From Halichondria panicea (Eukaryota; Porifera; Demospongiae; Suberitida; Halichondriidae), in NCBI RefSeq assembly GCF_963675165.1, contig NC_087388.1, positions 4,841,047 to 4,905,046 on the forward strand: a stretch of DNA of 64,000 nt. Direction: 5' to 3'. The position numbers were made by a program, and so were the translations under genes. This document shows positions 7,056 through 52,272 of the stretch, piece by piece (the stretch's first letter is position 1; every line of letters starts with the position of its first letter). Under the pieces are notes generated by a model. That model did not search any database. It worked only from the letters and a program-made list of their open reading frames with translations, and had not been told where the DNA came from.

Positions 7056-7337
7056 ATATAATTATCCGAGGCTGTGCAGCTAAATAAGTACCTATTATTG
7101 GACAGTTAAAACATTGAGCAGTGTGTCTTATTATAGCAACTCGTGCATAAATTAGTAAAATTATCGTTTGTGCGAATGAACAGATGTTATAATTATTATA
7201 GCAACTTGTACACATAGATATTATTTGATAATGCTGATACTATATATGATTATATCATTATGTTCAATCAGTACAGAGCCAACATAGACACACAACAGTT
7301 CTTAATTCAGTTCTCTTTCAGACTACACGTACACGAG

Positions 7338-7391
7338 TAGCCTCGATCCCAGCCCCTCTTAGCTTTTTCCTGCGGCCTGGAATCGAGGCTA
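7338..7391. mobile_element. 54-bp hairpin micro-transposon with perfect 9-bp target duplication
   Basis: TAGCCTCGATCCCAG at the left end is matched by CTGGAATCGAGGCTA at the right end (14 of 15 inverted bases). GTACACGAG is repeated directly on both flanks (7329-7337 and 7392-7400). The whole element is 54 bp. Same family as 44048-44082, 44116-44153, 24089-25177 and 52072-52272; a lone left end sits at about 11480. Confidence 0.88.
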
Positions 7392-7467
7392 GTACACGAG
7401 GTACCTCACCAAACTAACCAATCCATGCAGGCTTACAGGCTGGCATGATGTCACAAAACGTAATATA

Positions 7468-9368: not shown

Positions 9369-11234
9369 ATGGCGAGTAACAAGAAATTCACAATTGAGAC
9401 AGGCTCCTCAGCTGTCTACAATCCGACAAAGACGATTACTGGTTTGCCTGGAGTCTCCCCTACCTCACCCACCTCTTTAACACCTAGTTCTTATTGTAAG
9501 GCATCAGATGAGGGAGTGATCACTGAAAAACATCTACTAAAGCCTCCTGATGCAAAAATTAAAGTGGACTCTACTCCTAACTCATCGATACCCCGTCCTA
9601 TAGTCGTTCAGTCCAAGCCTACTGTAAATCATGATGATGAGCGTCACACTGGCACCGTCGAGCAGAATATTTATGCTCAGATGCTGGAAGACATTTGCGA
9701 TAATATGCCAACTGGGGTGGGTACAAACGTAGAATATACCCCTTACGGTGGTGAAAAATTGTTGGATGGTGCATATACACTTGATTTTCATGGCATACAG
9801 GATATAAAGAAAAAACCAAAAGTTGCTGACATTGAACAGTTAGATATTATGAAAACCCTTCTAAAGCTCGCCCGCAGAAGAGGATTTCGCACGTTACAAA
9901 TACTTTTGTTTCCTAAAAAGGTTGACAAATTCTGGACAATTCTTAAAAATGTTTGGATTATTAGTGAGCTTCTTTTTCTTTTTATAGGCCTTGGTTTTTC
10001 AATACATGATGTGACTACAACAGATTCTGTTGCACTGTACTCTTGGATTGAGCTGGGATTTGCTAGTCTCGGGTGCTTACTGGCTACAGTGGATGCAGTT
10101 GCCTCTTTATGGCCGTGTCAAGTGTGCTGCAATGCTTTTGGAAATGTTTGTGATCGATGCCATTTTCTTAAATCGTGCTTGAACACTGGTCGGATTTTGC
10201 TCACTGAGCTTATAATAACTCCCCTTATAATCTGTGATCTATTTGGTCTTTTCATTGAGCAAGATTACAACTGTGAAAATGAAAATCAATGCGTTAAATT
10301 CGCTCACTTCGTACTAGATGTTGTAGGTGCCATAGCTTTTCTTTATGTTGTTCGCATCTTCGTTCTTGTTGCCACAGTCAAAAGCATATACAAAATTCAG
10401 TCTCCCAAAGAAGGTAGCGAAGAAAAAGAAAGTGTGCCTACTAGACCTCAGGTTGAGAAACGTGCATTCAAGTTTACTGTCTTCCTTGTTATACATACGG
10501 CTCTTCAATTGTTTGCTCATTTCATCATGATTGTTGCCATTGGTGCACAAATACGCTACGAAAACGACGACCTTTTCACACAGTCTGACAGCAGTTGTGG
10601 AAATTACTGTGTGAGCGGTATAATTCTTTATATGACTATTGCTGCTTGTATCTTGCCCATTCTTGGACTCTTTAGCTACTTTGTATACACTAACTTTTGG
10701 TTTCAAGAATGTCCAATCTCTGTTCTTGTTGACTTTTTGCAAGTGATTGTAGCACCTGGTGGAAAGGATATTATCGAAATGAAAAAAAACAAGAAAATAG
10801 ACGAAACCCCTTTGCTAAAAATAATAAACTCTATAAGCAACAACGTGCAGAATGATTTCAATGGACTTGTACAGACAAGCTTAGCGACAAAAATGTGGTA
10901 CCCATTCAGGAATTCAACATGTGTAGCTTTCTGCCTCTTTTATGCGGCTTGTCAGTTGGCTTTTTATATAGCTGCTGGATTTGGGTATGTCAGTGTGAGT
11001 CACATCGCCGACAGTCAATGGCTGTTTGGTTTCACTATCTTCGGAGGAGTTTACCTATTGTTGATTAACATTTACGTCTTCATTATTGCTGCCTATTGGT
11101 TCACTATCATAGTAATCTTGACGACTTTACAGGTGATTGAAATATTGATATATCTCGCTTGGTGTTTATGCGTGACATGTGACATTCTTAACAATCCTTG
11201 TAAATATTTGCAACAGCAAATGACTCGCAGATAG
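9369..11234 (+). CDS. Multipass membrane protein of unrecognised family, member A (621 aa)
   Basis: Single-exon ORF with no family I recognise. Residues 1-190 are hydrophilic and probably cytoplasmic: Ser/Thr/Pro-rich, then an acidic stretch with EQNIYAQMLEDICDNMP, then a basic stretch with KKKPKVAD and LARRRGFR. About eight or nine hydrophobic segments follow. Between segments 2 and 3 lies a cysteine-rich loop, CxxCC(x7)CxxC(x5)C. Motifs shared with B and D include LTELIxTPLxxxDxF and LPxxGxFSYFxxxNFW. The start is set by the ATG in a MASNKK context whose homologues in B and C have lost that codon. It stands alone with its own upstream block, between chitin synthase and copy B. A channel, transporter or receptor is possible; nothing in the sequence decides. 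Confidence 0.85.
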   Translation: MASNKKFTIETGSSAVYNPTKTITGLPGVSPTSPTSLTPSSYCKASDEGVITEKHLLKPPDAKIKVDSTPNSSIPRPIVVQSKPTVNHDDERHTGTVEQNIYAQMLEDICDNMPTGVGTNVEYTPYGGEKLLDGAYTLDFHGIQDIKKKPKVADIEQLDIMKTLLKLARRRGFRTLQILLFPKKVDKFWTILKNVWIISELLFLFIGLGFSIHDVTTTDSVALYSWIELGFASLGCLLATVDAVASLWPCQVCCNAFGNVCDRCHFLKSCLNTGRILLTELIITPLIICDLFGLFIEQDYNCENENQCVKFAHFVLDVVGAIAFLYVVRIFVLVATVKSIYKIQSPKEGSEEKESVPTRPQVEKRAFKFTVFLVIHTALQLFAHFIMIVAIGAQIRYENDDLFTQSDSSCGNYCVSGIILYMTIAACILPILGLFSYFVYTNFWFQECPISVLVDFLQVIVAPGGKDIIEMKKNKKIDETPLLKIINSISNNVQNDFNGLVQTSLATKMWYPFRNSTCVAFCLFYAACQLAFYIAAGFGYVSVSHIADSQWLFGFTIFGGVYLLLINIYVFIIAAYWFTIIVILTTLQVIEILIYLAWCLCVTCDILNNPCKYLQQQMTRR

Positions 11235-17994: not shown

Positions 17995-19614
17995 ATGGAT
18001 GAAGAAGTGGCCCAGGTCCCTGATGATGAGAATTACAGTACCGTCGAGCAGGATATTTATGCTCAGATTCTGGAAGACATTTGCGATAATATGCCAACTG
18101 AAGTAGATACAGATGTGGAATATGCCCCTTATGGCGGTGAACGGTTGTTGGATGGTGCATATACGCTTGACTTTCATGGCATGGCTGATATAAAGAAAAA
18201 ACCAAAAGTTGCTGACATTAAGCATTTACATATTATGAAAACCTTTCTAAAGCTCGCCCGCAGAAGAGGATTTCGCATGTTACAGATGCTTTTGTTTCCT
18301 AAAAGAGTTGACAAATTCTGGACAATTCTTAAAAATGTTTGGATTATTAGCGAGCTTCTTTTTCTCTTTACAGGCCTTGGTCTATCAATATACGATATAA
18401 CTACAACAGATTCCGAGTCTGTTGCACTGTACTCTTGGATTGAGCTGGGATTTGCTAGTCTCGGGTGCTTACTGGCTACAGTGGATGCAGTTGCCTCTTT
18501 ATGGCCGTGTCAAGTGTGCTGCAATGCTTTTGGAAATGTTTGTGATCGATGCCATTTTCTTAAATCGTGCTTGAACACTGGTCGGATTTTGCTCACTGAG
18601 CTTATAATAACTCCCCTTATAATCTGTGATCTATTTGGTCTTTTCATCGAGCAAGATTACAAGTGTGAAAATGAAAATCAATGTGTAAAGTTTGCTCACT
18701 TTGTAATAGATGTTGTTGCTACCATCCTTTTTCTTTATATTGTTCGCATCTTTGTTCTTGTTGCCACAGTCAAAAGTATATACAAAATTCAGTCGCCCAA
18801 AGAAGGTAGCGTAGAGAAAGGAAGTGTGCCTACTAGACCTCAGGTTGAGAAACGTGCATTCAAGTTTACTGTCTTCCTTGTTATACACACGGCTCTTCAA
18901 TTACTTGCTCATTTCATCATGATTGTTGCCATTGGTGCACAAATACGCTACGAAAATAACCACCTTTACATTCAGTCTGTCAGCAGTTGTCCCGGAAATT
19001 ACTGTATAAGTGGTTTCCTTATTTACATGTCTACTGCTGCTTGTATCTTGCCCATTCTTGGACTCTTCAGCTACTTTGTATACACTAACTTTTGGTTTCA
19101 AGAATGTCCAATCTCTGTTCTTGTTGACTTTTTGCACGTGATTGTAGCACCTGGTGGAAAGGATATTATCGAAATGAAGGAAAACAAGAAAATAGATAAA
19201 AATGCTTTGGTAAGAACAATAAACTCCATAAGCAACAACGTGCAGAATAATTTCAAGGAACTTGTACAGACAAGCTTTAAGACAAAACTTTTATACCCAT
19301 TCAGGAATTCAACGTGTGTAGTTTTCTGCCTCTTTTATGCGGCTTGTCAGTTGGCTTTTTACATAGTTGCTGGATATGGGTATGTCAGTGTGAGTCACAT
19401 CCTCGACAGTCCATGGCTGTTTGGTTTCACTATTTTCGGAGGAGTATATCTATTGTTGATTAACATTTACGTCTTCATTATTGCTGCCTATTGGTTCATT
19501 ATCATAGTAACCTTGACGACTTTACAGGTGCTTGAAATATTGATATATCTCGCTTATTGTTTTTGCGTGACATGTGACATTCTTAACAATCCTTGTAAAT
19601 ATTTACAATCGTAA
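17995..19614 (+). CDS. Multipass membrane protein of unrecognised family, member B (539 aa, shortened N-terminus)
   Basis: Near-twin of A from the EQDIYAQILEDICDNMP region to the C-terminus, with the same eight or nine hydrophobic segments and the cysteine loop CxxCC(x7)CxxC(x5)C. The ancestral start codon is gone (the homologous ATGGCGAGT reads TTGCCGAGT at about 17341), a nested transposon pair interrupts the N-terminal region, and a 2-base deletion shifts the remaining part. The first usable in-frame ATG is 17995. Relative to A about 80 residues of the N-terminal region are missing. A 230-base tract (18418-18647) is identical to A, though the flanks differ by roughly a tenth. The open frame suggests it is, or recently was, functional. 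Function unknown. Confidence 0.8.
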   Translation: MDEEVAQVPDDENYSTVEQDIYAQILEDICDNMPTEVDTDVEYAPYGGERLLDGAYTLDFHGMADIKKKPKVADIKHLHIMKTFLKLARRRGFRMLQMLLFPKRVDKFWTILKNVWIISELLFLFTGLGLSIYDITTTDSESVALYSWIELGFASLGCLLATVDAVASLWPCQVCCNAFGNVCDRCHFLKSCLNTGRILLTELIITPLIICDLFGLFIEQDYKCENENQCVKFAHFVIDVVATILFLYIVRIFVLVATVKSIYKIQSPKEGSVEKGSVPTRPQVEKRAFKFTVFLVIHTALQLLAHFIMIVAIGAQIRYENNHLYIQSVSSCPGNYCISGFLIYMSTAACILPILGLFSYFVYTNFWFQECPISVLVDFLHVIVAPGGKDIIEMKENKKIDKNALVRTINSISNNVQNNFKELVQTSFKTKLLYPFRNSTCVVFCLFYAACQLAFYIVAGYGYVSVSHILDSPWLFGFTIFGGVYLLLINIYVFIIAAYWFIIIVTLTTLQVLEILIYLAYCFCVTCDILNNPCKYLQS

Positions 19615-24088: not shown

Positions 24089-25177
24089 TAGCCTCGACTC
24101 CAAGTGGGGGCCTGGTATTACTGTTGGCGCGTGGGTGGACAATTAATTTTTATTTACCGTATTTTATCTCATTGAACGTTAAAACAGTATTTTATCTTAT
24201 TGTGATAAAGAACAGAAAAAAGAAAAAGGAGAGGCTACCTCTCTGTATATACTGTAGACAGAGACAGCTAAGTAAAACATCAGCTCTGTAGATTTATTCA
24301 TTAACTTGAGGCTCGGATCGGATACACACTCAGGCGACAAGTTAATCTCATAAGAAATTAGTTAAACCTGTGGGTAAAAAATAAATGTGGATAAGTACAG
24401 TGGCTGTGACGTAACATAATGTGAGGACTACTTATTGATTTACACAATAGATTTACCATTGAAAGCACTATCCATTAATACACACTCAAGCAACAAGTCC
24501 GGATACACACTCAAGCAACAAGTCCCTCGGATTGTAAACACATTCAGGCCACAAAGTTCTCGGATCAGATACCACGTACTTACTCTGTGACCAATGTTTG
24601 GCAAATGTCACAACAATACTTCCTTCCAGAGAGAATGGCACTGAACGTCGAACAGACACACTAACACTTTGAAGATGGCTTCACTCAGAGAAACAAGAGG
24701 AGAAATCACCATCACAACACTTCTTTCATCACAACACTTCTTTCAGAGAGAGGTGCACTGGTCCTGTCAAGCTTCACATCAATCAAGAAAGGGAGTGTCT
24801 GGAAAGCAGATGGACTTAATTGCTCTGGGACTTTCCATAGCCGGTCGGTACGGTACCCACATAAACACCAGCGTACAGACACTTCAACGCCTCCAGCTGC
24901 TTGTCTTTCAAGACTAGACCTGGTTTTCCAACACAGGATAACGTGTACACGAGAGCAGAAGAGAAGCTAGCAGCCATTACACAACTTGGACTAGATTTCT
25001 TTTTTCAATGACATCATTATAAATGAAACGGATATCAATGTTTTACAACTAAATGCGGAATAAGAATACTGATAAATATACTACAATTTACGATTACCAA
25101 GATTCTTGGTAATTCTGGCGCATGCGTAAACAGTGTATACCAGGCCGCCTTTCTCAGTGGCCTGGAATCGAGGCTAT
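24089..25177. mobile_element. 1089-bp member of the TAGCCTCG hairpin family with 10-bp target duplication
   Basis: Left end TAGCCTCGACTCCA...GGCCTGGTAT. The right end inverted reads TAGCCTCGATTCCAGGCC...GGCGGCCTGGTATAC (TIR about 48 bp). AGCGCCCATG occurs directly on both sides (24079-24088 and 25178-25187), and joining the flanks gives a continuous CCGTATAGC-family MITE. The interior holds CGGATACACACTCA repeats (about 24317-24500) and no transposase ORF. A 9-10 bp duplication is typical of Mutator-like insertion; this assignment is inference. Confidence 0.82.
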
Positions 25178-42500: not shown

Positions 42501-44047
42501 TTGCGTTTAAGCGTATTCATGAGATTATTGATGACTGTACGGGTACATAGCGCTTTTTTCACCTCTTTTCACCGTTTTTTTATGGCTATGTACCAATAGC
42601 ACCTATAATATAGCTAAGATTGTCTAACTAAGTAGTGTCCTGGATCACATATAGCCTCAAGCATGGAAATGAAGTCTAAAATCAGCAGCAGGATTGTTAT
42701 ACTGACAGTAAGACAATCAGTTGTCTCCTCAACCATTCCCAGCCTGTGCTTTACTCGAGGCTGTCTTCCTACGTTGAAGTAGACAGCCTCGAGTAATGCC
42801 GGGGCAACACGGATGGTTATTCGAGGTCGATTTTGTTGCCAATCCCTCTTTGCTCTATCTATGATTCTAGTAATACGGTATCTCATGCATTTACAGGTAC
42901 ATTCATACATTAATTAAAGCGTGTAGTGAAACAAAATTAATGTGTTGTGTGCAAATATCTATTGTTACAAACAGTACAAGCGATCCTCTTCATTCCACAG
43001 TCACATAAGCTAACCATCACAAACTTATTAAGTATCTATTGTTACAAATGGTACAAGCGATCCTCTTCATTCCACTGGATAATTCAATTACATAAGCCAA
43101 CCATCACAAAAATAGTAAAATACTCACTTGCCCATTGCCCACTGTACACAGGATGGAGCTCTCGTTCTCATACTGAGCTGTCAGACTAACTCTATTCACA
43201 ACACAAGAGTACTCAAAGCCATGCACCCGTCTAATAGAAGGGAAACTATATAACAATCAGGTACAGAGGTCCTGGGCCACCCTCACTGGTTGAGTGTACC
43301 CACCAGATGGGGGCGTGTCCAATAGAGAGGGCACTGGCTGATTGTAGAATGAGCTGTCAGCATCCAGGGTCGATGTATTACTGACATCGTACTGTGAAAA
43401 AACAATGCCATTAACACTAACGACTCAATGACTCAACCATGCATGCACTTACTCCTAGTATCATTGAATCATCAGTTGCCACAAACACAAAGGAAAACTG
43501 CTCCACCTTCACAGCTACTGAAGCCATAAAGATTAGGCTGTCTCCAAAATTGATACGAACTGGTGCTATTAGGTCAATACCACCATTTGGGGCGAGAAGG
43601 CCGACTGGACTGGGTGTGTCACATTTGTCCACAGGTATCTGGAAAATGAAGTGCATGTGCGTGTGAATTGCTATGAAGTATAAAAATGCATGGTATACAA
43701 ACCTGAGACTGAGGCAGAGTATCGCAGCTTTCTGAGAAGACTGTTTTCTATGCTAAACCAATATCTTCTCCAACAGTGCATGACACAATACAGGAGTCAT
43801 ATTTAGCGTCCATAGCTTTATTGACAGCAGTGATGTCGACCATATGGCAAGCCGTGTGGTTCAAAAATAGAAAGCACAAAACGTACTGTTATTATGCCTA
43901 TAAACGTACGTGTTTTGGCTATAAACGTACGTGTTTTCTATAAACATACGTGTTTTCTATAAACGTACGTGTTTCATTATAAACGTACGTGTTTCATTAT
44001 AAACGTACGTGTTTCATTTTAGCTTTTTGTGCAATTCTCTCTGTCAC

Positions 44048-44082
44048 TAGCCTCGATTCCAGGCGGCCTTGAAGTGAGGCTA
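44048..44082. mobile_element. 35-bp hairpin micro-transposon with perfect 9-bp target duplication
   Basis: TAGCCTCGATTCCAGG...GAGGCTA, flanked on both sides by CTCTGTCAC (44039-44047, 44083-44091). Removing it together with one flank copy gives a plain continuous interior for the surrounding element. Confidence 0.88.
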
Positions 44083-44115
44083 CTCTGTCACTTGCTATGT
44101 GTTTCAGATATAACC

Positions 44116-44153
44116 TAGCCTCGAGACCACTAATCGGCCTGGATTCGAGGCTA
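44116..44153. mobile_element. 38-bp hairpin micro-transposon with perfect 9-bp target duplication
   Basis: TAGCCTCGAGACCA...GGATTCGAGGCTA, flanked on both sides by GATATAACC (44107-44115, 44154-44162). Lies only 33 bases after the 35-bp member. Confidence 0.88.
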
Positions 44154-44349
44154 GATATAACCGGACACGTACGTTTATAATGAAACACGTACGTACGTTT
44201 ATAGAAAACACGTACGTTTATAGAAAACACATACGTTTATAGCCAAAACACGTATATACGTTTATAGGCATAATAACAGTACGTTTTGTGCTTTCTATTT
44301 TTGAACCACACGGCTTGCCATACGACCACACAAATAGAATTAGTACTAT

Positions 44350-52071: not shown

Positions 52072-52272
52072 TAGCCTCCTTCCAGAGGAGGTCCGACAGG
52101 CGCAGTGCAGCTCAAGTAATTAGCCTCTGATTACTCTCAGCAAAAACATACGACGTGGGCGGTGCGTGGGCAGATAATTATTGTTAATTGCCTGAGCTGC
52201 ACCGCGCCTGTCGTACCTCCTCTGGCCTCCTTCACAAGGCCTCATCTTCAGTGCGGCCTGGAATCGAAGCTA
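52072..52272. mobile_element. 201-bp member of the TAGCCTC hairpin family
   Basis: Ends TAGCCTCCTTCCAGAGG and GGCCTGGAATCGAAGCTA, with a long inner inverted repeat (AGAGGAGGTCCGACAGGCGC / GCGCCTGTCGTACCTCCTCT). Flanks GGAAGTCTA (52063-52071) and GGAAGTCCA (52273-52281) match at 8 of 9 bases. Confidence 0.75.

Follow-up and report, generated by a model that had tools for sequence, protein, structure and literature searches.

A family of very small TAGCCTC hairpin elements with 9-bp target-site duplications, and the probable loss of their centres in place

Two hairpin units and their surroundings

The window analysed here, a stretch of 64,000 nucleotides of DNA from Halichondria panicea, encodes a chitin synthase (PF03142) and carries, between positions 44039 and 44162, two short hairpins that lie side by side. 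Unit 1, a 35-bp hairpin of the form TAGCCTC...GAGGCTA on the + strand (44048-44082), is bracketed by two copies of the 9-bp sequence CTCTGTCAC (44039-44047 and 44083-44091), and unit 2, a 38-bp hairpin on the same strand (44116-44153), lies between two copies of GATATAACC (44107-44115 and 44154-44162); no strand is assigned to the duplications. The preliminary description of this DNA had placed two units with exact 9-bp direct repeats at these positions, and both are confirmed. The right end of unit 1 is a mutated copy of an end that reads GAATCGAGGCTA in most of the paralogues read. Both hairpins are predicted to be weak, at -8.8 and -9.1 kcal/mol, against -32.6 kcal/mol for a 58-bp palindrome of the same family.

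Both units are contained in a repeated inverted-repeat element (43843-44322, no strand assigned) whose outer arms, at 43843-43908 and 44257-44322, are 66 nt long and 100% complementary. This element corresponds to the other transposon in which the preliminary description had placed the pair, and further copies of it were located through the joined flanks of the window pair. The arms are built of a TATAAACGTACGTGTTTCAT minisatellite, and by eye the motif CGACCA stands just beyond both ends of the element. In three copies of the host element on contig C5 (L144-L146) both units are absent: the sequence that flanks unit 1 is present once, with one base changed in L146, and that which flanks unit 2 is also present once, stretched by extra TA. 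Both window hairpins are remnants of transposon insertions that still bear the 9-bp duplication of their landing.

The window holds two further members of the family. A third unit, of 54 bp (7338-7391, + strand), which was absent from the preliminary description, is flanked by the perfect duplication GTACACGAG at 7329-7337 and 7392-7400, and a probable long copy of 1088 bp (24089-25176, + strand) has the ends TAGCCTCGACTCCA and TGGAATCGAGGCTA, with GCGCCCA found 2 bp outside each of them. A 142-bp inverted-repeat unit with other ends (52083-52224), found in a scan that made no use of the TAGCCTC motif, has the exact 9-bp flanks GCCTCCTTC. By eye, two near-alike reading frames resembling membrane proteins (9369-11234 and 17995-19614) lie about 8.6 kb apart; a Pfam scan confined to the first of these gave no match. 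Among the 120 matches listed in the search that bears on the host, a species is named in one record alone, that of the freshwater sponge Ephydatia muelleri (37% identity).

Abundance, duplications and empty sites

The genome searched comprises 131 Mb in 39 contigs, and the statistics that follow are counts of patterns together with the stretches read. Exact TAGCCTCGANTCCA ends occur 3034 times genome-wide (1578 + 1456), while the reversed control pattern does not occur at all. Units of 28-58 bp with two perfect 14-bp ends number 203, and those of at most 40 bp with slightly looser ends number 37, with sizes of 31-40 bp; the controls for both gave zero, and units whose ends are more altered, the 35-bp unit of the window among them, escape both patterns. 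A looser search of the stretches read yielded a 28-bp unit, TAGCCTCGACTCCAGCCCCTCGAGGCTA (L018:4734-4761), shorter than all 37 counted, which represents one insertion present in several copies (L018, L046 and others recognized by eye) and whose flanking repeat is, by eye, an exact 8 bp. The motif-free scan, which sought inverted ends with an exact 9-bp direct repeat at 25-150 bp, returned 19 matches in 264 kb, 12 of them TAGCCTC...GAGGCTA units, from 21 sequences of which 20 had been preselected for such ends. Among 134 units, 111 distinct interiors were found, six of which recur at two or three independent insertions. Matches to TAGCCTCGATTCCAGGC in other collections (1 in viral_contigs, 10 in genome_contigs) are attributed to chance, as expected of a 17-mer when the collections are so large.

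Flanking duplications of 9 bp, whose genome-wide excess had been set as a test in the preliminary description, are strongly enriched: 86 units give 78 distinct flank pairs, of which 42 are perfect, whereas mismatching the pairs yields a single perfect case in 6006. All 37 units of 31-40 bp were read, and the duplication matches at 9/9 positions in 19 of them, at 8/9 or better in 26 and at 7/9 or better in 29; the shortest, of 31 bp (L116), has the perfect repeat TATACTGTG. The corresponding figures for the first 50 listed of the 203 units, a non-random sample from contigs C1 to C3, are 24, 34 and 40. A perfect duplication also accompanies 10 of 20 further units of 45-53 bp, which were taken from 46 places and selected for repeated or predicted interiors, as well as longer copies of 285, 606, 746, 770, 1355 and 1861 bp, which had been preselected by a filter requiring a match of at least 8/9. 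The length of the duplication is 9 bp in every size class of unit. Among the 42 perfect duplications, G occupies position 1 in 23 and C occupies position 9 in 23.

Two alternatives bear directly on these counts. That chance palindromes combined with assembly error account for the units, a reading that only their small size might recommend, has a negligible probability, being refuted by the 3034 exact ends against none reversed and by a match between flanks far above that of mismatched pairs. It is also very improbable that the hairpins owe their spread to template switching or replication slippage with no transposase involved, the 9-bp repeats arising from repair. One locus does resemble the outcome of fold-back copying (L148, C2:5182500-5182860): unit 1 is inverted there, and its own left flank forms a palindrome around it. 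Against slippage stand the constancy of the duplication, 9 bp long whatever the size class of the unit, the copies of 606 to 1861 bp that share the same ends and have perfect 9-bp duplications, and the precision of the empty sites.

Empty sites, a further check proposed in the preliminary description, were found for both window units and for others, in the form of paralogous copies within one genome. A 34-bp unit (L108) has at least 40 empty repeat copies that are 98% identical across the joined site, with 40 of 644 candidates scored for a query in which 16 other sites were left unscored. A 32-bp unit (L105) and a second 34-bp unit (L118) have 16 and 24 empty copies respectively, each 94-98% identical, from the same 40 scored among 249 candidates of a shared query with 6 sites unscored. 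Two longer units, of 58 and 56 bp, have empty copies with full identity across 90 and 89 bases respectively; 40 candidates out of 168 were scored here, and the matches of this query are to three joined sites. The existence of such near-identical empty copies indicates that the insertions are real and that some of them are recent. The TAGCCTC family is real, abundant and very small.

Two observations concern neighbouring or aberrant units. A second type of end, TAGTCTCGCGAGCA...TGCTCGCGAGACTA, delimits units of 67 bp (L009:5584-5650) and 407 bp (L019:8059-8465) with perfect 9-bp duplications, and perhaps represents a sister family. The 285-bp unit at L012:4261-4545 shares its duplication, GGGGGGTGC, with palindromic units of 58/59 bp at L011 and L015, some 226 additional bases either replacing or splitting its centre.

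Shortening in place and the origin of the short units

Paralogous copies of the host element allow a single insertion to be followed through several lengths. Insertion 2 measures 38 bp in the window, 47 bp in L141, 48 bp in L140 and in L143, and 61 bp in L142, always at the same 9-bp site, GATATAACC; in L147 and L149 its right end is altered and the unit is longer than the window form, and L139 is truncated at the right. The presence of at least four lengths of one insertion implies that the 38-bp unit was shortened after landing: it reached its present size in place, not by jumping at 38 bp. The proposal that units this small were still mobilised is consequently not supported for the 38-bp unit, and a transposase needing about 15 bp of terminal sequence, as had also been suggested, is consequently not demonstrated. 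By eye, the window form looks like the 47-bp form, whose centre is GATTAGTAATC, with the loop inverted and about 9 bp lost. Insertion 1 measures 35 bp in all nine occupied copies of the host element that were read, in one of which (L148) it is inverted. Among the 14 groups of multi-copy insertions that were formed, insertion 2 provides the only convincing large change of length; the mixed-length groups L028/L085, L078/L083 and L094/L110 appear to bring unrelated sites together loosely, and the members of two more differ by 1 bp.

Comparison between units points in the same direction as the most probable reading, set out below. Removal of one contiguous piece from a longer observed unit yields 23 of the 36 distinct units in the 31-40 bp range, against 11 of 1744 shuffled interiors; the other 13, for which the units read offer no exact source by a single deletion, hold at least one unexplained base, and the window's 38-bp unit has one such base. 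At the junctions of the 23 deletion products, microhomology of 0, 1, 2 and 3 bp is seen in 8, 7, 6 and 2 cases, so that eight of the junctions reach 2 bp or more. Among all the products that are possible, 6.7% would do so and 74% would have 0 bp.

The reading that we consider probable is that of a non-autonomous, cut-and-paste MITE family with 9-bp duplications, whose hairpin centres are lost in place after insertion. Elements would insert either as palindromes of about 45-60 bp or as copies of about 0.3-1.9 kb, and the centres of the hairpins would then be removed by small deletions, often at microhomologies of 1-4 bp. Such deletions may be caused by the instability of palindromes, or by aborted gap repair after excision. 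Loss would come to an end near 28-36 bp, where little remains beyond two head-to-head ends and the hairpin would be weak. Several observations weigh against this reading: a single group among the 14 offers a convincing large change of length, 13 short units lack an exact single-deletion source, the duplications of short units are no more decayed than those of long ones, the two exact end-to-end products described below lack a 9/9 duplication, and identical units of 35 and 39 bp are each found at two sites.

That the short units were themselves mobilised, a transposase joining ends 28-48 bp apart and the units landing at their present size, is an unlikely account with several observations in its favour. 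Identical units occupy distinct sites (the 45-bp and 48-bp units at three each, those of 47, 35 and 39 bp at two each), and because identical interiors (35, 39, 45, 47, 48 and 58 bp) recur at two or three unrelated sites, mobility of the short form retains some probability. The 32- and 34-bp units appear recent from the 94-98% identity of their empty copies, and the constancy of the 35-bp unit in its nine copies agrees with landing at that size. The short units also show no sign of greater age: a test based on decay of the duplication gave no gradient with unit length, perfect duplications being found in 26 of 48 units of 28-40 bp, 27 of 54 of 41-50 bp and 19 of 32 of 51-110 bp, and since the duplications of short units are no worse than those of long ones, the former do not look older. 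Set against this are the 38-bp window unit itself, a shortened form of a longer insertion, and the restriction of most of the interiors read to a single insertion, which is not the pattern of an amplified founder. Moreover, the recurrent interiors sit on microhomologies of 1-4 bp (2 and 1 bp as computed for the 35- and 39-bp units, the others by eye), so independent deletions could remake identical units, and in both the 35-bp and the 39-bp recurrent pair one member has a poor duplication. The stiffness of DNA bars ordinary double-stranded DNA from looping between ends so close, and ends 28-48 bp apart would presumably fail to meet in this manner. The general proposition that a eukaryotic transposase moves elements of 28-48 bp, which amount to little more than two back-to-back binding sites, is one that we consider unlikely; if it were true, double-stranded DNA would not simply be looped to pair the ends, which would have to meet by way of an extruded hairpin, between two neighbouring elements, or in an end-to-end complex.

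A further route to short units starts from long parents. The longer copies begin with TAGCCTCGATTCCAGGCCG or a similar sequence, followed by a stretch specific to the subfamily and then by GCCTGGTAT...CATGYGC; 240 ends of this long type are present in the genome, in discrete subfamilies, and among the 100 of the 240 that were listed the subterminal stretches resemble the interiors of short units. Within the long-copy ends, GGCCTGG is a direct repeat of part of the opposite end, and a deletion between its copies would produce a unit of about 46-54 bp in which the ends stand head to head. Exact matches to the predicted products exist at C10:2513565 and C8:4137556, a third unit, at C6:2567065, being similar to them. 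Their duplications are mixed: L160 is flanked by an exact repeat of 8 bp and L161 by none, neither of the two exact products having a 9/9 duplication, while L162 has a 9/9 match. The derivation of short units from long parents by this end-to-end deletion is therefore possible, with weak support.

As a whole, the interpretation given in the preliminary description holds for transposon insertion, for the enriched 9-bp duplications and for the empty sites, and fails for the mobility of the 38-bp unit.

The candidate mover and relation to known families

The combination of 9-bp duplications with heterogeneous interiors makes a Mutator-like transposase the likeliest mover. The genome contains 31 matches to PF10551 (MULE transposase) and 24 to PF12762 (IS1595-type transposase). 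Three of the 31 MULE loci were read, none of which has a pair of TAGCCTC ends, and by eye no PF10551 match is listed near the 100 of 240 long-type ends that were listed. Four reading frames of long copies, two from the 1861-bp copy and two from the 1088-bp copy in the window, gave no Pfam match; some frames of long copies appear helicase-like, by eye only. Duplications of 8-9 bp are also a property of Merlin elements, whose transposase is of the IS1595 type.

MITEs are usually 100 bp or more in length. The TAGCCTC units are, like them, short, numerous and non-coding, those of 31-60 bp being too short to code; they have terminal inverted repeats and a target-site duplication, and are accompanied by larger relatives with the same ends. 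The duplication has the fixed length expected of MITEs, here 9 bp, and empty sites are found at related loci, here paralogous copies. Copies with the same ends reach 1861 bp, the four frames scanned in such long copies having no Pfam match. The differences lie in the size of the units, 28-60 bp, in interiors that are mostly private to an insertion where amplification of a founder would be expected (111 distinct sequences in 134 units), and in the one insertion that changed length after landing. With respect to MULEs, the 9-bp duplication falls within their 8-10 bp, while their long inverted repeats, usually of more than 100 bp, have no counterpart, the longest similar arms, those of the 1355-bp copy, measuring about 68 bp by eye.

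Muta1 of Aedes aegypti, a MULE, has duplications of 8 or 9 bp and non-autonomous relatives with heterogeneous interiors (PMC5225508); it shares with the TAGCCTC family 9-bp duplications and non-autonomous copies with common ends and differing interiors. The same paper reports inverted repeats of less than 60 bp in two of 14 MULE families. Novel MITE-like families of Anopheles gambiae (PMC3212995) are likewise palindromic, and related families share ends and not interiors, but those elements measure 430-1678 nt. Sequences eliminated in Blepharisma (PMC9942856) include palindromic MITE-like units and a main MITE whose diverged copies are shorter than the young ones; they differ in being mostly TA-bound and removed during development, the main MITE being derived from Pogo and hundreds of bp long. 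In another superfamily, PMC10288884 reports excision to be more frequent the smaller the element, the shortest one tested being 430 bp, and no mobility test below 100 bp was met in those portions of the literature examined. Literature on the smallest MITEs, 9-bp duplications, palindromic MITEs, sponges and gap repair, among other subjects, held no recognized description of the TAGCCTC family, and a search by end sequences returned two papers that, judged from the listing, concern soybean.

Repeat finders that ignore units this short would miss the family. It seems to display both stages of the life of a transposon, fresh insertion and collapse of the hairpin centre, at the smallest scale, and its natural gradation in length, between 1.9 kb and about 30 bp with ends and scars intact, bears on the minimum size of a mobile element and on the decay of palindromes in an animal-like genome.
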